NCBI RefSeq assembly: GCF_013403985.1
Contig: NZ_JABFDF010000002.1
Location: 372,001 to 436,000, forward strand
DNA length: 64,000 nt
Reading direction: 5' to 3'
Source: Winogradskyella ludwigii
GTDB lineage: Bacteria > Bacteroidota > Bacteroidia > Flavobacteriales > Flavobacteriaceae
In this document: one piece after another, positions 7,743 through 18,376 of the stretch
Layout: the number at the start of each line of letters is the position of its first letter
How positions within the stretch are numbered: the first letter of the stretch is position 1
Translations under genes and position numbers: made by a program
Notes under the pieces: model-generated
Databases searched by the model: none
Seen by the model: the letters and a program-made list of their open reading frames with translations, nothing else
Told to the model about the DNA's origin: nothing

Positions 7743-10574
7743 ATGAAACATATTAAATCAACACTTCTAAGTTTATTGGTGCTTTTTACCATTTGGTCTT
7801 GTAAAGAGAACGCGACAAAATTAGAACAACAAGAAGAACAAGAATTCAAAGTTGAATACGAAAAATTCACTTTAGATAATGGTTTACAAGTCATTCTTCA
7901 TGTTGACAAATCAGATCCAGTGGCTGCTGTAGCATTAACAGCACATGTAGGTTCTGCACGTGAAAAAGCAGGAAGAACAGGGTTTGCACATTTGTTTGAA
8001 CATTTATTATTCTTAGAATCCGAAAATCTAGGCAAAGGTGGTTTAGACCAAATGAGTGCTCGTATTGGTGGTTCTGGAGCCAATGGCTCTACAAGTCGCG
8101 ATCGCACCAATTACTTTCAAACGGTACCAAAAGATGCCTTAGAAAAAATGATTTGGGCAGAAGCAGATAAATTGGGTTACTTTATTAATACGGTTACAGA
8201 TCCTGTATTAGCGAAAGAAAAACAAGTGGTTAAAAATGAAAAACGTCAGAATGTAGACAACCGTGCTTATGGACATAATTCGGCTGTAACAAATAGTAAT
8301 CTTTATCCTAAAGGACACCCTTACAGTTGGGAGGTTATTGGCTCTTTAGAAGATTTACAAAATGCTACTTTACAAGATGTAAAAAACTTTTACAAGCGTT
8401 GGTATGTTCCCAATAACGTAACGTTAACTATCGCTGGGGATATTGATGTTGCACAAACAAAAGCATGGGTAAAAAAGTATTTCGATGAAATTCCGAAAGG
8501 AGAATCCATTCCTAAAATGGAAAAACAACCTGTAACTTTAAAAGCAACGAAGCGTTTATTTTACGAAGATAATTTTGCACGTGCACCAAGACTTACAATG
8601 GCTTGGCCTGCAGTTTATGAATATCATCCAGATTCTTATGCCTTAAGTGTATTATCTCAATATTTAACTGAAGGTAAAAAAGCCCCTTTATATAAAATTT
8701 TAGTTGAAGATAAGCAACTAACAAGTGATGTTGGAATGTATCAGTACTCATCTGAAATTGCTGGTCAATTAATGCTAAGTGTTACGGCTTTCGATCAAAC
8801 GAATTTAAATACAGTTGTTACTGCAATCAATGAAGGTTTTAAGGATTTTGAATTGAATGGTATTTCAGAAAACGATCTTAATAAAATTAAAGCCGGTCAA
8901 GAAACAAATTTCTACAAAGGGTTATCTAGTGTTTTAGGCAAAGGTTTTCAATTGGCACAATACGAGATTTTTGCAGGTGATCCTGGGTTTATTAACCAAG
9001 ATGTCAAAAACATTTTGGCTGTAACACCAGAAGATGTGATGCGTGTGTATAACACCTATATTAAAGGAAAGAACTTTATTGCAACTAGTTTTGTACCTAA
9101 AGGACAAGCGAGTTTAGTTTTAGATAATTCGCAATTAGCAAATGTTATTGAAGAAGAAATTATTGAAGGAGCTGAAGAAAATTTTGATGCTAGCATTGCT
9201 GCAGATTACGAAAAAACACCAAGTAACTTTGATAGGTCTATAGAGCCTGAATATGGTGAAAGTCCTGATTTAATAATTCCTAAAGTTTGGAAACAAGATT
9301 TAGCTTCTGGAATTAAAGTTTTCGGTATCGAAAATACAGAAGTGCCTTTAGTAGAATTTGAACTGGAAATAAAAGGAGGTTTACTATTAGAAAACATAGA
9401 AAAGGTTGGAGTTTCTAATCTTATGGCTAGATTAATGAGCAAGGGTACTAAAAACAAAACACCCGAAGCTTTAGAAAACGCTATTGAAAGTTTAGGAGCT
9501 CAAGTTTATAGTTACGCAACTGAAAATAGTGTAACTATTGCTGGGACTACTTTAGCCAAACATTTTGATGCGACAATGGAATTAGTAACAGAGATGTTAT
9601 TGGAACCTCGTTGGGACGCAGAAGAATTCAACTTATTAAAACAAAGTACCATTAGTGGTATTCAACGTCAGAAAGCAAATCCTAATAGTATAGCCTCTAA
9701 TGCATTCGCGAAGCAATTATATGGTGAAAGTAATATTTTAGCTTATAACAATAATGGCACAGAAGCATCTGTAAATTCTATTACACTTGCCGATTTACAA
9801 GACTTTTACTCAGAAAAATTAACACCTACCTTGACCAACTTACATGTAGTAGGTTCTATCACAGAAAATGAAGTTATTAAAGCTTTAGAAACAATTAATA
9901 CCAATTGGGAATCTAAAAATGTTATAATTCCAGAATTAGCACAACCCATTTATCCTGAAACATCTAAAATATATTTCTATGATGTTCCTAACGCAAAACA
10001 ATCTGTTATAAAATTTGGTTACCCATCTTTAAAAGCGACCGACAAAGATTATTATGCAGCTTCAGTGATGAACTATCGTTTAGGAGGAGGTAGTTTCGCT
10101 TCACAATTAACACAAGAATTAAGAGAAGGGAAAGGTTATACTTATGGTATTCGTTCTGGATTTAATGGAGATGCAAACAAAGGAGAATTCTCAATTAATA
10201 GTGGTGTACGTACTAACGTTACTTATGAATCTGCAGCTTTGGTAAAAGAAATTTTAGAAAATTATGGCACTAATTATACAGAAAACGATTTAGAAATAAC
10301 AAAAGGTTACACACTAAAGAGTAGTGCTCGTGCTTTTGAAACGTTGGATGCTAAATTAAGTATGCTAAGTAATATTAGTAATTTGGGATATGCTGATGAT
10401 TATGCTAAACAACGTGAAACTATAGTAAAAGACTTAACTGTTGCAGATGTGCAAGCTTTAGTTAAAAAATACATTACACCAAATCAAATGATTTATGTAA
10501 TTGTTGGAGATGCTAAAACACAATTAAGCAAGTTAAAGGCTTTAGGTTTTGGTGATGCTATATTACTTAATTAA
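7743..10574 (+). CDS. M16-family (pitrilysin-like) zinc peptidase, lipoprotein
   Basis: The lipoprotein signal ends in TIWSC (Cys20), so the protein is probably anchored in the outer membrane or periplasm. The inverted zinc motif HLFEH (His83, Glu86, His87) marks the active N-terminal M16 half. The second half (from about residue 500) repeats the fold without the motif, as is normal for 900-residue M16 enzymes. GKGYTYGIRSGF near 800 corresponds to the conserved RxxxY substrate-binding region. Such proteins degrade peptides in the envelope. It is preceded by a decayed copy of the M14 3' end and followed by a strong terminator. Confidence 0.92.
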   Translation: MKHIKSTLLSLLVLFTIWSCKENATKLEQQEEQEFKVEYEKFTLDNGLQVILHVDKSDPVAAVALTAHVGSAREKAGRTGFAHLFEHLLFLESENLGKGGLDQMSARIGGSGANGSTSRDRTNYFQTVPKDALEKMIWAEADKLGYFINTVTDPVLAKEKQVVKNEKRQNVDNRAYGHNSAVTNSNLYPKGHPYSWEVIGSLEDLQNATLQDVKNFYKRWYVPNNVTLTIAGDIDVAQTKAWVKKYFDEIPKGESIPKMEKQPVTLKATKRLFYEDNFARAPRLTMAWPAVYEYHPDSYALSVLSQYLTEGKKAPLYKILVEDKQLTSDVGMYQYSSEIAGQLMLSVTAFDQTNLNTVVTAINEGFKDFELNGISENDLNKIKAGQETNFYKGLSSVLGKGFQLAQYEIFAGDPGFINQDVKNILAVTPEDVMRVYNTYIKGKNFIATSFVPKGQASLVLDNSQLANVIEEEIIEGAEENFDASIAADYEKTPSNFDRSIEPEYGESPDLIIPKVWKQDLASGIKVFGIENTEVPLVEFELEIKGGLLLENIEKVGVSNLMARLMSKGTKNKTPEALENAIESLGAQVYSYATENSVTIAGTTLAKHFDATMELVTEMLLEPRWDAEEFNLLKQSTISGIQRQKANPNSIASNAFAKQLYGESNILAYNNNGTEASVNSITLADLQDFYSEKLTPTLTNLHVVGSITENEVIKALETINTNWESKNVIIPELAQPIYPETSKIYFYDVPNAKQSVIKFGYPSLKATDKDYYAASVMNYRLGGGSFASQLTQELREGKGYTYGIRSGFNGDANKGEFSINSGVRTNVTYESAALVKEILENYGTNYTENDLEITKGYTLKSSARAFETLDAKLSMLSNISNLGYADDYAKQRETIVKDLTVADVQALVKKYITPNQMIYVIVGDAKTQLSKLKALGFGDAILLN

Positions 10575-10699: not shown

Positions 10700-10795
10700 T
10701 TACATAAAAAATATGAGCTGATATACTAAACTAGCTACAACAAGACAAGAGAATACCATTAATACTCTAAGTTGATTTCTTTTAATAGTACTCAT
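10700..10795 (-). CDS. Possible very small membrane protein (31 residues)
   Basis: On the minus strand an ATG at 10795 opens a 31-codon frame, MSTIKRNQLRVLM followed by FSCLVVASLVYQLIFFM and a stop. It has a basic N-terminus and one hydrophobic helix of about 20 residues. That is the layout of many flavobacterial single-helix proteins that gene callers miss. Support comes from the hydrophobic pattern and from the strong terminator placed just beyond its stop, usable from this strand. It lies directly downstream of the decayed rimO end, so it may once have been the gene after rimO. I recognise no family. It could be a chance ORF. Confidence 0.4.
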   Translation of the reverse strand: MSTIKRNQLRVLMVFSCLVVASLVYQLIFFM

Positions 10796-10850: not shown

Positions 10851-10934
10851 TTATTCACTTAAAACCTTACTATAAAGGTCAAAACCCTCTTTTTCAACAA
10901 CTTTGATCGTTTTAATTTCTACTCTTCATAAATA
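10851..10934 (-). pseudogene. Decayed copy of the 3' end of rimO
   Basis: Translated on the minus strand, the last 27 codons before a TAA at 10851 align without gaps to the C-terminus of the intact RimO encoded at 17069-18376. Fifteen of 27 residues are identical, including TIKV, then E.E and FDLY, then VL and the stop at almost the same place. A TGA interrupts it just after the conserved YL. Upstream (10935-10950) similarity fades (PLIRC may match the RIDA region with a deletion). There is no start or catalytic region, so it is a remnant. It has the same orientation as intact rimO, with the whole urease operon between the two. Confidence 0.8.
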
Positions 10935-11179
10935 GCATCTTATTAATGGCAAGCAGTAAACTAATCACGATTTATTAACAATTTGTGATAAAAACTAAGA
11001 ATAGTGTAGCTTTAACGCTTGTTTTTAAATTTCAAAAAAGCTAGATTCGTTTATCGTTGATTATAAAATATTGAAACGTTTTTATATCCACGCAACATCA
11101 GACGAACAATCTTTTTCGCTAAAAACTAACACCACAACAAAAAATCAACAACTAACGATCCTTTTTAAAAAATAAATTT
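10935..11179. other. Intergenic region upstream of the urease operon
   Basis: AT-rich non-coding DNA between the rimO remnant and ureA. It must carry the urease promoter, but I find no convincing TTG/TAnnTTTG pair. An ACGT-centred AAACGTTTT is present at about 11075-11083. I see no riboswitch-like structure or leader peptide that I can support. Confidence 0.5.
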
Positions 11180-11482
11180 ATGCATTTACTACCTAGAGAA
11201 ACTGAAAAATTGCTCTTGCATTTCGCTGGTGAATTAGCAACCAAAAGAAAAAATAGAGGCTTGAAACTAAATTATCCTGAGGCTATTGCATTAATTTCAT
11301 CAGAACTAATGGAAGCCGCAAGAGATGGAAAAACAGTGGCAGAACTCATGCATTTTGGAGCCACAATTTTAAGCAAAGATGATGTTATGGAAGGCATTGC
11401 AGAAATGATTCACGATGTTCAAATCGAGGCGACCTTTCCCGATGGCACTAAATTAGTAACCGTTCACACCCCAATAAGATGA
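11180..11482 (+). CDS. ureA: Urease gamma subunit
   Basis: The 100-residue gamma subunit of urease (urea to ammonia and carbamate, cytoplasmic). The family hallmarks are [20 protein letters not shown] at the start, [25 protein letters not shown] in the middle and the [13 protein letters not shown] terminus. Length is exactly typical. It is the first gene of an eight-gene operon and its stop overlaps the ureB start (ATGA). Confidence 0.98.
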
Positions 11483-11841
11483 TACCAGGAGAATATATAT
11501 TATCAAAATCTGCTATTCAATGCAATAGCGATAAAGCAACAGCTAAAGTTTCTGTGGTTAATTCTGGTGATCGGCCAGTTCAAATAGGTTCGCATTTTCA
11601 TTTTTTGGAAGTTAATAGAGAATTACAGTTTGAAAGAGAACATGCACTAGGAATGCGTTTAAATATTCCAGCAGGAACAGCAGTTAGGTTTGAGCCAGGA
11701 GAATCAAAAGACGTTGAATTAGTGGCTTTTGGTGGAAATCAAAAAATTGTAGGTTTTAGCAATTTAATTAACGGATTAGATCTCGTTAAAGACAAAGCAT
11801 TAATTCTTGAGCGCGTTAGAAATTTCACAAAACAATATTAA
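11479..11841 (+). CDS. ureB: Urease beta subunit
   Basis: Begins IPGEYI and carries the conserved [19 protein letters not shown] and [16 protein letters not shown] segments of the urease beta chain. At 120 residues it is slightly longer than the usual 100-110, the extra being a C-terminal tail (LIINGL to NFTKQY region). The structural subunits are kept as three separate genes, unlike the fused forms of Helicobacter or plants. It overlaps ureA by four bases and is ten bases ahead of ureC. Confidence 0.97.
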
Positions 11842-11851
11842 ATTTTAAGGT

Positions 11852-13567
11852 TTGGAAATCAATAGAATAAAATACGCAAACATGTATGGTCCAACCGTAG
11901 GTGATAAAGTGCGTTTAGCAGATACAGAGTTATTTATAGAAATTGAAAAAGATTTTACCGTTTACGGCGATGAAATTAAATTTGGTGGAGGAAAAACGAT
12001 TCGTGATGGTATGGCACAATCTGCCAGAGCAACTCGTAACGATGGTGTTCTAGATTTTGTAATTACAGGAGCCATGATTATTGATCATTGGGGAATTGTA
12101 AAAGCAGATATTGGTATAAAAGATGGTAATATTGTTGGTATTGGTCGCGCTGGAAACCCAGACACCATGGATAACATTACTCCTAATATGATTATAGGAG
12201 CCTCTACTGAAGTTCATGGAGGTGCTGGTTTAATTGCCACAGCTGGTGGAATTGACACACATATTCATTTTATTTGTCCGCAATTAATAGAACACGCGCT
12301 ATATAGTGGTATTACTACAATGATTGGTGGTGGAACTGGTCCTGCAGACGGAACCAATGCCACAACAGTAACTCCAGGTGCTTGGAATATTGAAAAAATG
12401 TTAGCATCAGCAGAAGCTTTCCCTATGAATTTAGGATTTATGGGCAAAGGAAACTGTGCAACACTAGAACCTTTACAAGAACAAATTGAAGCTGGAGCTT
12501 TAGGTTTAAAAATTCATGAAGATTGGGGTTCTACTCCTGCTGTAATTGATGCGTCATTAACAATGGCAGATAAATATGATGTTCAAGTCGCTATTCATAC
12601 AGATACTTTAAATGAAAGCGGATTTTTGGAAGAAACCATAAATGCTATCGATGGAAGAACCATTCACACGTACCATACGGAAGGTGCAGGTGGTGGACAT
12701 GCTCCTGATATTATTAAGGCAGCGATGTATCCAAACATTTTACCTTCGAGTACCAATCCAACACGACCTTATACCATAAATACGATTGAAGAACATTTAG
12801 ACATGCTTATGGTTTGTCATCATTTAGATAAAAATGTTCCTGAAGATGTATCATTTGCCGATTCTAGAATCCGACCAGAAACTATCGCTGCTGAAGATAT
12901 TCTTCATGATGAAGGTGTTTTTAGCATGATGAGTAGTGACTCTCAAGCTATGGGTAGAGTTTCAGAAGTTATTTCAAGAACCTGGCAAACGGCTCATAAA
13001 ATGAAAGTTCAACGTGGAGAGCTGTTAGAAGATAAAGGGAATAACAATGACAATTACAGAGTAAAACGTTATGTGGCTAAATACACCATTAATCCAGCAA
13101 TTGCTCATGGTATTTCAAATCATGTTGGGTCTTTGGAAGCAGGTAAATTAGCAGATATTGTTTTGTGGAAACCAAGTATGTTTGGTGTAAAACCAGAGCT
13201 TATTTTAAAAGGAGGAATGATTGCTGCTGCAAAAATGGGAGATCCAAATGCCTCTATTCCAACTCCACAACCTGTAATTTACAGACCTATGTTTGGCGCT
13301 TTTGGAAAAGCTTTAACAGATACATCACTAACCTTTGTTTCTAAGGTTTCTTTGGAATTAGGAATTAAAGAGAAATACGGATTGAAGAAAAAACTAGTCG
13401 CTGTTTCTAACTGTAGAGACATTTCTAAAAAAGATTTAATTCACAATGATAAAACACCAGATATAGAAGTTAATCCTGAAAACTACGAAGTAAAAGTAGA
13501 TGGTAAAGTTATCACGTGCGAACCAGCAACCGAAGTACCTTTAGCACAACGCTACTTTTTATTTTAG
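11852..13567 (+). CDS. ureC: Urease alpha (catalytic) subunit
   Basis: Holds the dinuclear nickel site. Visible are the HIH ligands (His137, His139), the lysine that is carbamylated to bridge the nickels (Lys220 in GLKIHEDWG), the flap region [13 protein letters not shown] with its histidines, and the SSDSQAMGR segment with the nickel-binding aspartate. The 571-residue length is standard. Translation must start at the TTG at 11852, because an in-frame TAA lies six bases upstream and later ATG codons would remove the conserved [12 protein letters not shown] start. The nearest purine-rich site (AAGG) is only one base from the TTG. Confidence 0.98.
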
Positions 13568-13574
13568 ATAGCAT

Positions 13575-14075
13575 ATGAAAATTTATAAAAAACTAGGTCA
13601 TATTTCTACGTTTCAAACCCAAAATAAAATAGTAGATCCTATTGCTTTTGAATGGTATGAAGTGCATAAGCGTATTGCTCATAAAACATCTCAAAATGGA
13701 AATTCAATACAAATTAAATTTTTAAATGAAAATCCTAATTTCCAAGAAGGTGATGTTTTGTTTGAAACAGAAACCCATATTGGTAGTGTAGAAATTACAC
13801 CTTGCGAATGTTTAGTAATTATACCAAAATCTAATTTTGAATTGGCTGCTGCATGTTTTGAAATTGGCAATAGGCATTTACCCTTATTTATGGATCATGA
13901 CGAATTAATGGTGGCTTTTGATAAACCATTAGCACGTTATTTTGAAGCTTCAAATTATAAAATTAAAAAGGAAGAACGAAAACTCGTAAAACCTTTAAAA
14001 ACAACCGTTGCTCCACATGGAGAAAACAAAAGTTTATTTACAAAAATCATGCAATTAACCCAACCTACATCTTGA
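13575..14075 (+). CDS. ureE: Urease accessory protein UreE (nickel chaperone)
   Basis: UreE delivers nickel to the UreDFG-apourease complex. The N-terminal peptide-binding domain is followed by the metal-binding domain, with GNRHLPLFM (conserved His near 103) and an acidic DHDELMV. It lacks the histidine-rich C-terminal tail of Klebsiella UreE and ends in a short basic tail, so it is probably a chaperone rather than a nickel store. It starts seven bases after ureC and its stop overlaps the ureF start. Confidence 0.93.
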   Translation: MKIYKKLGHISTFQTQNKIVDPIAFEWYEVHKRIAHKTSQNGNSIQIKFLNENPNFQEGDVLFETETHIGSVEITPCECLVIIPKSNFELAAACFEIGNRHLPLFMDHDELMVAFDKPLARYFEASNYKIKKEERKLVKPLKTTVAPHGENKSLFTKIMQLTQPTS

Positions 14076-14758
14076 ATTCAGCATTACTGCAATTATTACA
14101 TCTCAGCGATCCAACTTTACCCATTGGTGGGTTTTCTCACTCCAATGGACTGGAAACGTATGTGCAAAAAGACATTGTAAAAGATGAGACTTCTGCCCTA
14201 CTTTTTATTCAAAATATGCTTTCACAAAGTATCGTTTATAATGATGCGAGTTATTTATCTTTTGTATTTTCAGCTATTGAAAATGAGGATTGGGACACTA
14301 TTATTTCGCTCGATAATCATTGTAATGCTACAAAATTGCCTTCGGAAATTAGAATTGCAAGTCAGAAATTAGGATTGAGATTAATTAAAATATTTCAATC
14401 GTTAGATGAAAACAAAAACATTCAAATCTTACACCAAAAAATAAAAAGTAAAGAACTCTACGGCCATTATTGTATTGTGTTCGCTATTATTGCTCACGCT
14501 TTAAAACTGAAAAAAAAAGAAGCTTTAACCGGTTTTTATTATAATGCTGCTACTGCTTTCACCACAAATTGTGTGAAGCTAATTCCATTAGGACAGCAAT
14601 CTGGACAGCAAATAATTTTAAAATTAATGCCGTTAATGGAAACCTTAGTGGCCGCTTCTATGCAACCAGAAAAATCAAAATTAGGATTGTGTTCCATTGG
14701 TTTTGATATTAGAGCCATGCAACACGAAAATTTATACTCAAGACTTTACATGTCATAA
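14072..14758 (+). CDS. ureF: Urease accessory protein UreF
   Basis: An all-helical activation-complex protein of 228 residues. Family motifs are [25 protein letters not shown] at the start and [23 protein letters not shown] near 170-190. It bridges UreD and UreG and gates GTP-driven nickel insertion. The start is a TTG at 14072 that overlaps the ureE stop (TTGA), which indicates translational coupling. Confidence 0.95.
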
Positions 14759-14760
14759 AA

Positions 14761-15399
14761 ATGAAAGAAAGAACTTATATAAAAATTGGCGTAGCAGGAC
14801 CTGTTGGTTCCGGTAAAACCGCGTTAATTGAAAGAATCACAAGAGCCATAAGCAAGGATTATAGTATTGCTGTGGTTACCAATGATATTTACACACAAGA
14901 AGATGCACAGTTTTTAACTCAAAATAGTTTACTCGATCCCGATAGAATTATCGGAGTAGAAACAGGTGGTTGTCCGCATACCGCAATTCGTGAAGACGCT
15001 AGTATGAATATGGAAGCTGTTGATGAATTAGCCAACAGGTTTCCAGAAGTTGAATTGATATTTATTGAAAGTGGAGGTGATAATTTATCGGCTACATTTA
15101 GTCCTGATTTAGCAGATTTGACCATTTTTGTTATTGATGTTGCAGAAGGTGATAAAATTCCACGTAAAGGTGGTCCTGGAATAACAAGAAGTGATTTATT
15201 GGTGATTAACAAAATTGATTTAGCACCTTACGTTAGAGCAGATTTAGGGGTTATGGAAACCGATTCACGAAAAATGCGAGTTGGTAAGCCTTTTATTTTT
15301 ACCAATTTGTTTGATGGCACTGGCTTGGATGATGTTATTGGTTGGATTAAAAAATACGCACTATTTGAAACCGTTGAAGAACCCAATCTTTTAAAATGA
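14761..15399 (+). CDS. ureG: Urease accessory GTPase UreG
   Basis: A SIMIBI-class GTPase of 212 residues that powers nickel insertion. The P-loop is GPVGSGKT (about 14-21), followed by [10 protein letters not shown], the nickel-binding [10 protein letters not shown] (CPH motif), the [13 protein letters not shown] segment and the base-recognition motif NKIDLAP. All key residues are present. It begins two bases after ureF and overlaps ureD by four bases. Confidence 0.98.
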
Positions 15400-16181
15400 A
15401 ATCGACCGTTGCAATCCATACATTTAACAGAAATGGTATTACCTATTTAAAGGAATGCTTTGCCTCCAACCCATTTAAGGTAATGGATGTACGCGAAGAT
15501 AAAACTCAACCGTGTCTAGAACTAATGCTTATGAGTTCTTCACCTGGAATTTTAGATGGCGACCATTATACGTTTCAAATTGATGTGAAAGAAAATTGTG
15601 CTTTATCGTTGCATACACAATCGTATCAGCGTATTTATAATATGAAAACATCTGCTGTTCAAAACACAACGATTAACGTTGGCGAAAATGGATTTTTTCA
15701 ATATTTACCGCATCCAACAGTACCGCATAAAGATTCCAACTTCATAGCTCAAAACGACATTTATTTATCTACAGGATCTACGTTAATTTGGTGCGATTTA
15801 TTTAGTTGTGGCCGAAAACTAAATGGTGAATCCTTCGATTATAATTCGTTTGAAAATAGCACAACCATTTATCAAAATAGTATCCCAGTTGCTATTGAGC
15901 ATATTTGCTTTCAACCAAAATTACAGATGCCAACATTACTCGGTCAGTTAGAAGATTTCTCTCATAGTGGTAGTATTTTTATCATCAACGAAAACTTGGA
16001 TGTCAAAACCATTAAACAAAAAGCAGACGACATTCTAATTCAATTTGAAGACATTGAATTTGGGACGTCACTCGCGCCAACAAATGGTTTAATAATAAAA
16101 CTATTAGCTAATAGCGGAGAACATTTATTTCAGATTACACAAACGGTTGTTAAAGCACTTAAACTAGAAATTGAAAATTAA
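15396..16181 (+). CDS. ureD: Urease accessory protein UreD (UreH)
   Basis: The scaffold that binds apourease and recruits UreF and UreG. Recognisable segments are [16 protein letters not shown] (about 45-60), [12 protein letters not shown] (about 75-88), [15 protein letters not shown] (about 104-118) and [16 protein letters not shown] (about 130-145). The length of 261 residues is normal. UreD is placed after ureG here, giving the order A-B-C-E-F-G-D. It overlaps ureG upstream and the putative permease gene downstream (TAATG). Confidence 0.94.
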
Positions 16182-16885
16182 TGGACCATAGTTTTTCTCT
16201 ATTATTAACGTCTGCTATTGGCATCAGTATGATTCATACCTTAACTGGTCCTGATCATTATCTTCCGTTTATAGCCTTGTCTAAATCTGGAAAATGGTCG
16301 TTAAAAAAAACAATATTTTGGACGTTAATGTGTGGTTTTGCTCATGTTTTAAGTTCTATTTTAATTGGTTTAATAGGTATAGGAATTGGTTACACTTTAA
16401 TTCAATTTGACCTTATTGAATCTACGCGTGGTAATTGGGCTGCATGGTTGCTATTAATTTTTGGAATTGGTTATACACTATGGGGATTATATAGTCTAAA
16501 ACGCAATAAATTACACAAACATTTTGAGGTTAATGATGACGCTGATATTTTAATTTATGAACATAAAGATGATGGCAATGCTGTTTTACCAGACGAGAAA
16601 TTTAAGGTAACACCTTGGGTAATGCTTTTTATTTTTGCTCTTGGACCTAGCGAACCTTTAATTCCGCTTTTATTCTATCCTACTGCTGAGCAATCTTTTC
16701 ATCAAGTTAGCATTCTAATTATAGTTTATCTCGCTGTTACGTTACTATCAATGCTCTTTATGGTGTTGCTAGGTTATTTTAGTATTCAGCGTTTTCAGTT
16801 TGGCTGGCTAGAAAAATATATGGGATTATTGAGCGGATTGATTATTTTAACTTGTGGTATTGGAATGGTATTTTTGAATTGGTAA
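16181..16885 (+). CDS. Putative nickel permease (UreH-like/HupE-like membrane protein)
   Basis: About six membrane helices in 234 residues. The first helix carries HTLTGPDHYLPF, which resembles the histidine/aspartate signature of NiCoT-type and related UreH-domain transporters, although the spacing (H, five residues, DH) is one longer than the classical HX4DH. A central hydrophilic, acidic and histidine-containing loop (about 110-140) separates two halves, and the second half has FALGPSEPLIPL. Its start overlaps the ureD stop, so it is the last gene of the urease operon. Nickel uptake for urease is the obvious role, inferred from context. Confidence 0.78.
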   Translation: MDHSFSLLLTSAIGISMIHTLTGPDHYLPFIALSKSGKWSLKKTIFWTLMCGFAHVLSSILIGLIGIGIGYTLIQFDLIESTRGNWAAWLLLIFGIGYTLWGLYSLKRNKLHKHFEVNDDADILIYEHKDDGNAVLPDEKFKVTPWVMLFIFALGPSEPLIPLLFYPTAEQSFHQVSILIIVYLAVTLLSMLFMVLLGYFSIQRFQFGWLEKYMGLLSGLIILTCGIGMVFLNW

Positions 16886-17006
16886 TAGTTTATACCGCGA
16901 TTTTTTTTTATAAAACCATCAACCTTATATAAATATTCCAAGACCATAATACTTGTAAAAAATGGTCAGGGTTAAACTGTAGTAAAACTTAATATTTACG
17001 TTTAAC

Positions 17007-17051
17007 AAAAAAATGGTTGCTAATATGTCTAGTAAACACATTAGCAACCAT
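17007..17051 (-). terminator. Intrinsic terminator of rimO
   Basis: A 16-bp stem with one mismatch (ATGGTTGCTAAT..TGT with its complement, seven-base loop) is followed by seven T when read on the minus strand. It lies between the convergent ends of the urease operon and rimO. Confidence 0.88.
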
Positions 17052-17068
17052 TCAATAAATACTTTTAT

Positions 17069-18376
17069 TTAAGAGACTAAGACTTCTCCATAAAGATCAA
17101 AATCTTCAGCTTCTATAACTTTAATGGTGGCAAACTCACCAGTTTTTAAATAGGTTGTTGTAGCATCAATACGCACTTCATTATCAACATCTGGAGAATC
17201 AAATTCTGTACGACCAACAAAATAATTACCTTCTTTTCTGTCGATAACCACTTTAAAGACTTGCCCTATTTTAGCTTGATTCAATTCCCAAGAAATCTGA
17301 GATTGAATTTCCATAATGTCATTAGCACGTTGCATTTTCACTTCCTCAGGAACATCATCTTCCAAATTATAAGCGTGTGTATTTTCTTCGTGAGAATACG
17401 TAAAACAACCTAAACGTTCAAAACGCATTTCTGAAACCCAATTCTTAAGTTCTTCAAAATGTGCTTCAGTTTCTCCTGGATAACCAACAATTAGTGTTGT
17501 TCTAATAGTCATTTCAGGAACAATTGCTCTAAACTCATTAATCAATTTTGTGGTCTTATCTTTTGTAGTACCACGACGCATCGATTTTAATAAATCATCA
17601 GAAATATGTTGTAACGGAATATCTAAATAGTTACAAATCTTTGGCTCACGCTTCATAATGTCTAAAACATCCATCGGAAAACCTGTTGGAAATGCATAGT
17701 GTAAACGAATCCATTCAATACCTTCAACTTTAACTAAGTTTTCTAATAACTCTGCAAGATTTCGTTTTTTATAAATATCTAATCCGTAATATGTTAAATC
17801 TTGAGCAATAAGAATTAATTCTTTAACACCATTAGCGGCTAATTTTTCAGCTTCAATAACTAAATTCTCAATAGGAGTACTTTTATGTTTTCCTCTCATT
17901 ATTGGAATGGCACAAAAACTACAAGGTCTATCGCAACCCTCTGCAATTTTAAGATAAGCATAGTTTTTTGGTGTCGTTGTTAAACGCTCTCCAATTAACT
18001 CATGTTTATAATCGGCGCCTAATGCTTTTAATAAGCCAGGTAATTCTGTAGTTCCAAAATACTGATCTACATTAGGAATTTCCTTTTCTAAATCTGGCTT
18101 GTAACGCTCACTTAAACAACCTGTAACAAAAACTTTATCGACTTCGCCATCTTCTTTTTTCTGCATGTATTCCAAAATGGTGTTCACACTTTGTTCTTTG
18201 GCATTATTGATAAAACCGCAAGTATTAATAACAACAACGTTACCTTCTTGTTCATGGACAACGTCCTTTCCACTTGCTTTTAACTGTCCCATTAACACTT
18301 CGCTATCGTAAACATTTTTACTACAGCCTAAAGTAATGACGTTGATTCTGTTTTTCTTAAGAGTTTTTGTACGCAT
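17069..18376 (-). CDS. rimO: Ribosomal protein S12 methylthiotransferase RimO
   Basis: A radical-SAM enzyme that adds a methylthio group to Asp88 of ribosomal protein S12. The N-terminal UPF0004 domain has its iron-sulfur cysteines at 18, 53 and 87. The radical SAM site is CDRPCSFC (Cys148, 152, 155), and a C-terminal TRAM-like domain follows (about 370-435). MRTKTLKKNRINVITLGCSKN and ISDDLLKSMRRG fit RimO rather than MiaB. The 435-residue length is usual. A second, decayed copy of its last 27 codons lies beyond the urease operon at 10851-10934. Confidence 0.96.
   Translation of the reverse strand: MRTKTLKKNRINVITLGCSKNVYDSEVLMGQLKASGKDVVHEQEGNVVVINTCGFINNAKEQSVNTILEYMQKKEDGEVDKVFVTGCLSERYKPDLEKEIPNVDQYFGTTELPGLLKALGADYKHELIGERLTTTPKNYAYLKIAEGCDRPCSFCAIPIMRGKHKSTPIENLVIEAEKLAANGVKELILIAQDLTYYGLDIYKKRNLAELLENLVKVEGIEWIRLHYAFPTGFPMDVLDIMKREPKICNYLDIPLQHISDDLLKSMRRGTTKDKTTKLINEFRAIVPEMTIRTTLIVGYPGETEAHFEELKNWVSEMRFERLGCFTYSHEENTHAYNLEDDVPEEVKMQRANDIMEIQSQISWELNQAKIGQVFKVVIDRKEGNYFVGRTEFDSPDVDNEVRIDATTTYLKTGEFATIKVIEAEDFDLYGEVLVS

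Follow-up and report, generated by a model that had tools for sequence, protein, structure and literature searches.

An integron-like cassette system in Bacteroidota and an empty attI-like platform beside a urease block adjoining the rimO 3′ end in Winogradskyella ludwigii

In this study, we describe an integron-like system of Bacteroidota in which one-gene cassettes with attC-like hairpins occur either in arrays beside a tyrosine recombinase or singly in solitary, attI-like platforms that lie just upstream of the cassette gene. One such platform, which is empty, was found in a 64,000-nucleotide (nt) stretch of the Winogradskyella ludwigii genome (hereafter the window; assembly GCF_013403985.1, contig NZ_JABFDF010000002.1, positions 372,001 to 436,000, or C22:372001-436000 of genome G000 in our numbering), at the left end of a block of urease genes adjoining rimO. 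The block, together with this platform, probably entered the genome at the rimO 3′ end, the platform being part of the integron-like system, which we regard as the main result. We also lean towards the view that Bacteroidota own a widespread integron class, with a XerA-like recombinase lacking the IntI domain, long cassette-specific R″/R′ arms, and distributed solitary platforms, beside housekeeping genes, through which fixed sites of the chromosome are supplied with defence and other accessory genes. If this is true, a divergent kind of integron is common in Bacteroidota and delivers single genes, including antiphage candidates, to many chromosomal sites; it has probably been overlooked since its recombinase and attC sites fall outside the usual models. 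The recombinase, the attC sites, and the empty and filled sites provide concrete material for testing.

Solitary platforms

The platform is also referred to here as the R-end and the attC-like hairpin as the L-end; R1 and R2 denote the models of the platform and of the hairpin, respectively. The platform of the window is the following feature:

10973-11106 (134 nt), minus strand: empty integron-like platform, attI-like (R-end), recognized by R1, by a hidden Markov model (HMM), and by alignment to genome G357

The R-end was first seen in a locus of Arcticiflavibacter luteus (L189), as a conserved stretch ahead of the next rimO end in a row of units; this row contains five platforms, and three of its joints carry ~32-nt copies of the rimO end. 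R1 assigns 117.8 bits to the window platform (whose sequence is among the 12 in the model), and an HMM built without the W. ludwigii genome places it at 10968-11098 with an E-value of 3e-23, as the sole match in the 64-kb window. In one R-end search, the 24 matches represent 19 distinct sequences, 16 of which were used to build the model of that search. The platform contains an inverted repeat, in which 5 of the 13 predicted pairs show changes on both sides with pairing retained. Neither platform nor hairpin has a match in Rfam, and a search of plasmids with one L189 module gave no match.

Platforms are present in eight of ten hand-picked genomes of the genus (zero to four copies each) and in 29 of 299 genomes of the family (E<=1e-6; up to ten copies), where they lie beside rimO and, as judged by sequence, beside pyk, trmD, recQ, and other genes. 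They are situated close upstream of the start codons of unrelated genes on the opposite strand: among 65 first genes beside platforms, some of them native genes next to an empty platform (fmt in L280 and ureA in L224), only two related pairs were detected (E<=1e-5). In many loci, the genes that follow the platform end at the L-end, a long hairpin. A clean pair of filled and empty sites exists in genus g45 behind a pyk-like gene, where G103 carries a cassette and G357 a bare platform. The window platform aligns with that of G357 across the cassette insertion point and is thus empty.

Cassettes and their hairpins

The terminal inverted repeats are private to each cassette. From 50 cassettes found, one was dropped because of insufficient flank, and a cassette's own pair of repeats scores >=8 in 39/49 cases versus 78/2352 mismatched pairs; a recurring G/A mismatch is visible by eye. 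A similar relationship holds within arrays, where the 5′ end of a cassette pairs with its own R″ at >=7 of 9 positions in 37 of 44 cassettes, versus 321 of 1892 cross pairs. The hairpin is an imperfect palindrome with complementary R″ and R′ and GTT at the join, as in attC sites, and folds more strongly on the strand opposite the gene in 42 of 44 cases. In the 21-pair stem, 99.0% of the alignment cells are paired, and seven pairs have changed on both sides (a number reached by 3/500 shuffles). The covariation score of the stem was reached by 0/500 shuffles, with 13 pairs invariant and the structure derived from the same alignment.

Across Bacteroidota, 52 of 296 genomes and 37 of 139 genera carry the hairpin (E<=1e-6). 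The W. ludwigii genome has at least nine attC-like hairpins; they lie on contigs C2, C4, C23, C25, C26, and C29, several of them near contig starts, as if the array had broken the assembly. Six of 20 hand-picked proteins have no Pfam family (E<=0.01), and PADLOC, applied to ten hand-picked proteins, indicated antiphage-like products, namely AriA/GajA-like, SoFic, caspase, and PDC-S33 with a RelA/SpoT domain; others are regulators, a BLUF sensor, and a glycosidase. Antiphage-like cassette genes were observed in L272, L273, L239, and L271.

The associated recombinase

An attC-like hairpin lies within 1.6 kb of the recombinase gene in 14 of 20 hand-picked recombinase loci (W. ludwigii included), in rows of up to 10, and in the other six the contig ends 0.05-0.95 kb beyond the gene. 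Of ten Xer-like loci (1.5-kb flanks), none contains a hairpin. The recombinase of W. ludwigii is encoded at C23:1255-2319, and the distance from it to an L-end is 1 kb. The starts of the first cassette after the recombinase stop were located in L333, L335, and L346, and dyads were noted by eye in L335 and L329; the array starts beside the recombinase yielded no common attI model, and the platform model has no match there.

The presence of a recombinase is uninformative by itself, because the integron-integrase model detects sub-threshold tyrosine recombinases in all 14 controls as well as in 18/18 hand-picked genomes. Five recombinases score 176-202 bits with TIGR02249 (cut-off 265), aligning in two stretches that skip model positions ~180-238, and IntI4 (2a3v) is likewise matched in two stretches; with NF040815, the five score 198-229 bits versus a cut-off of 220, two of them above it. 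Judged from this model coverage, the recombinase appears to skip the IntI-specific stretch and to fall outside the integron integrases.

Relationship to integrons

As far as the available text of the sources goes, an IntI-specific additional domain defines the integron integrase (PMC9668308), and GTTRRRY is the consensus of R′ (PMC9892861). The present system shares with integrons the mostly one-gene cassettes, each terminated by an imperfect hairpin with an R″ that is complementary to the 5′ end of the same cassette, as well as the GTT join, the arrays beside a tyrosine recombinase, and the stronger fold on the non-gene strand. It differs from them in a recombinase without the IntI-specific stretch, in R′ sequences that mostly depart from GTTRRRY (3/44 array cassettes fit), and in attI-like platforms that stand alone, at a distance from the recombinase. 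Because the IntI-specific stretch is skipped and the R′ consensus is not followed, we classify the system as integron-like and not as a member of the integrons.

According to the accessible portions of earlier work, intI genes have been noted in the Bacteroidetes/Chlorobi group (PMC2426708), The Natural History of Integrons counts this group among integron bearers (PMC8618304), and the large IntegronFinder 2.0 survey counts just one complete integron in Bacteroidetes. For Polaribacter phage P12002L, recombination of attC2 with attI1 via IntI1 is documented, attC1 being unconfirmed (PMC9892861); the accessible part of that study mentions no chromosomal Bacteroidota system, and its attC1 and attC2 could not be matched to the hairpin coordinates. 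The hairpin model matches both P12002L and Winogradskyella phage Peternella_1, with best E-values of 4.9e-10 and 4.4e-13, respectively, and phages may carry such cassettes. At E<=0.1, four hairpin matches were observed in Peternella_1 (part; L266 5970-7360) and nine in P12002L (L357). A literature search, with preprints and most subscription papers outside its coverage, returned no description of these arrays or platforms in the text available.

Probable insertion at the rimO 3′ end

The features of the window that bear on the insertion, besides the platform, are the following:

7743-10574, plus strand: M16 peptidase; native flanking gene next to the remnant (open reading frame, ORF; name from an earlier note on this DNA)
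10700-10795, minus strand: 31-codon ORF, located behind rimO where the site is empty; part of the native DNA beside the remnant (intact in the window, G016, and G021)
10851-10936, minus strand: decayed native 3′ end of rimO (translation, tblastn, profiles, and synteny)
17069-18376, minus strand: intact resident rimO (ORF and rimO comparisons)

The earlier note, made from the sequence of the window, had placed a decayed RimO end just left of the urease genes, and this claim is confirmed. Translated in the rimO sense, 10936-10851 reads ..YL*RVEIKTIKVVEKEGFDLYSKVLSE*, and tblastn (~0.8 Mb) aligns 26 residues with RimO, 15 of which are identical (57.7%), with one internal stop and an E-value of 0.023. 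Profiles of rimO 3′ ends detect the remnant with an E-value of 0.0022, and a larger profile with 0.011. The proposed comparison with shuffled sequence varied with the scoring: an ungapped 76-nt DNA match between remnant and rimO was equalled by 4/1000 dinucleotide shuffles under one scoring but by 266/1000 under a stricter one, and a further scoring of the remnant against the last 325 nt of rimO was reached by 0/1000. Taken by itself, this similarity is modest.

Synteny is decisive. In Winogradskyella undariae CCUG 63832 (G016), which has no urease, rimO is followed by a 289-nt gap and then by M16, so that a urease-free relative with the arrangement anticipated by the earlier note does exist. 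The remnant and ~280 nt behind it are colinear with this intergenic region, 254/279 sites after the stop being identical; the remnant is therefore a real native rimO end, and a chance likeness is ruled out. The same colinearity argues that the end of rimO was the insertion point of the urease block and that the native end was left behind, and the empty site in this way documents a metabolic block displacing the end of a core gene. The better-matching rimO end that the note had called for was also found: among 134 rimO ends (some genomes being present twice), that of G016 fits the remnant best, and the resident end ranks 67th. The note was mistaken in stating that nothing but eight urease genes lies between the two rimO ends, as the conserved platform is located there too, and its remark on the missing integrase agrees with the finding that none of the window ORFs from the remnant to rimO encodes a recombinase. 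The 31-codon ORF between rimO and M16 encodes a hydrophobic product.

The entry of the urease block may be pictured as a two-sided event, in which donor DNA carrying a rimO end and the block would have crossed over inside rimO, and the far end of the donor would have been attached by non-homologous joining inside the final ~80-110 nt of the recipient rimO. The recombinase, in turn, would move cassettes, acting in trans in the case of solitary platforms.

Several results speak against this account or narrow it. At the sites where resident and G016 rimO differ, the remnant agrees with G016 at 11 and with the resident gene at 4, which is not significant (p 0.12), and an origin of the resident rimO end in another lineage is only suggestive; a sliding identity comparison of rimO with 29 relatives revealed no clear breakpoint, and no donor was found. 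The mode of entry put forward in the earlier note is thus supported as regards the insertion at rimO and the native end left behind, whereas its replacement end of foreign lineage stays suggestive. Since the operon has no attC, cassette machinery does not explain its entry. Nor is the copying of gene ends shown to be general for platforms, because direct repeats of flanking DNA at 11 of 13 platforms are within chance; L225, beside rimO itself, is a short match. The region is also fluid in general: the Prx gene beside M16 is retained in just 4 of 29 loci, which makes it useless as a stable-neighbour control, and the gap length is consequently not shown to be special to rimO. Finally, the hairpin z-scores are modest, with a median of -1.81 and values below -3 in 11/44.

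At another platform (L227, in G011), a possible decayed 3′ end of the neighbouring M14 gene was detected on the far side of the cassette, at about 14676-14750 of oriented G011 (L102) (5/1000 shuffles; 17/500 in the cassette-free G033), which, if real, would be a second case like rimO, but is a weak lead. The comparison of G011 with G033 gave no clean element ends.

Competing explanations and rimO-end copies in relatives

The genus sample comprises 60 genomes, W. ludwigii included, drawn from a larger group (M16 and UreC matches at E<=1e-100; G039, with a masked rimO end, excluded from rimO-end counts), and the loci L140-L219 overlap partly with these genomes. rimO is present in 60/60, M16 in 42/60, and UreC in 2/60; in 37/60 (W. 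ludwigii among them), rimO and M16 lie tail to tail in one stretch, with gaps of 289-40962 nt.

One alternative, which we consider unlikely though the strongest of its kind, is site-specific integration, in which the rimO 3′ end served as attB for an element that arrived with a rimO end of its own and whose recombinase disappeared afterwards. Strand bias of the copies is in its favour, as it is in that of the main account: downstream of rimO, seven rimO-end copies lie on the rimO strand and none on the opposite strand (>12 bits; 103 regions, 1.21 Mb), and a shorter window at >10 bits gives 13 versus 1. The same-strand copies are carried by G000, the close relatives G011 and G033, G019, G047, and Arcticiflavibacter luteus, that is, by about five lineages, and the copies at the joints of the five-platform row in L189 point in the same direction. 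Against it, screening 628 ORFs (>=90 aa) for motifs revealed no serine recombinase and a single, apparently false tyrosine-like motif, and in 20 hand-picked genomes no PF00589 match was listed in the rimO gaps or, where M16 is absent, in the 20 kb past rimO; an integrase in these gaps was rejected on these grounds. Moreover, the remnants vary from ~28 to ~112 nt between genomes.

Rather less probable still is that the rimO 3′ end was duplicated in tandem in a single lineage and the second copy then decayed. The distal copy is indeed closest or near-closest to the genome's own rimO in G011, G033, G047, and L189 (8th in G019), and the duplication in those genomes therefore need not be a replacement. 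In the window, however, it is the decayed copy that is joined to the native downstream DNA and the intact rimO that is joined to the urease block, and the remnant is identical to the G016 rimO end at 62/86 sites versus 53/86 for its own resident rimO.

Capture of the urease operon as a cassette whose attC was since lost is improbable: the 74 nt that separate the ureA start from the platform are a usual distance, but the window platform has the uninterrupted sequence of an empty one at the insertion point and no attC is found at the urease end, and the operon was rejected as a cassette for these two reasons. Least probable of all is that platform and hairpin serve accessory genes just as conserved promoter and terminator, given the cassette-specific inverted repeats, the filled/empty pair, and the arrays beside the recombinase, even if the platform, being near start codons, may well carry a promoter.

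Insertion at the rimO end, with the platform as part of an integron-like system, can also be set beside two other known systems. Staphylococcal cassette chromosome (SCC) elements target the housekeeping gene rlmH and insert at its 3′ end. As in SCC, the insertion is at a gene 3′ end, the gene is kept intact, and direct repeats of the gene end are present on both sides; unlike SCC, the block contains no site-specific recombinase, and remnant length varies between genomes. In mobile insertion cassettes (MIC), passenger genes are moved in trans, as would also be the case here, whereas the cassette ends of the present system are cassette-specific and hairpin-based.

The urease block and minor observations

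The urease block and its junction with rimO consist of the following features:

11180-11482, plus strand: ureA (ORF)
11479-11841, plus strand: ureB (ORF)
11852-13567, plus strand: ureC (ORF; relatives searched)
13575-14075, plus strand: ureE-like (ORF)
14072-14758, plus strand: ureF-like (ORF)
14761-15399, plus strand: ureG-like (ORF)
15396-16181, plus strand: ureD/ureH-like (ORF)
16181-16885, plus strand: membrane protein, presumably of the HupE/UreJ type, last gene of the block (ORF)
16886-17068, no strand: urease/rimO junction, no attC-like hairpin found (L-end HMM at E<=10; R2 across the window at E<=0.1)

The gene names given for the operon are presumed ones. Relatives of ureC occur in 6/299 genomes of the family, W. 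ludwigii included (E<=1e-150), and in the second urease-bearing genome of the genus, UreC is encoded at a different locus. On the minus strand at 12002-12296, antisense to ureC, the window matches the Rfam family 5_ureB_sRNA (RF02514) with 66.3 bits versus a threshold of 40, which may merely reflect conserved ureC coding sequence.

Short second rimO ends directly after the stop are present in G004, G011, and G033, and the repeat beside that of G004 is one we take to be similar to repetitive extragenic palindromic (REP) sequences. At the rimO stop of L093 (G004) and of L216, a presumably REP-like repeat lies within the end of rimO and is followed by another short rimO-end copy. A protein of ~270 residues ending in FTFGPxDGC or a similar motif recurs near rimO in G057, L149, G032, G009, G039, L189, and others.

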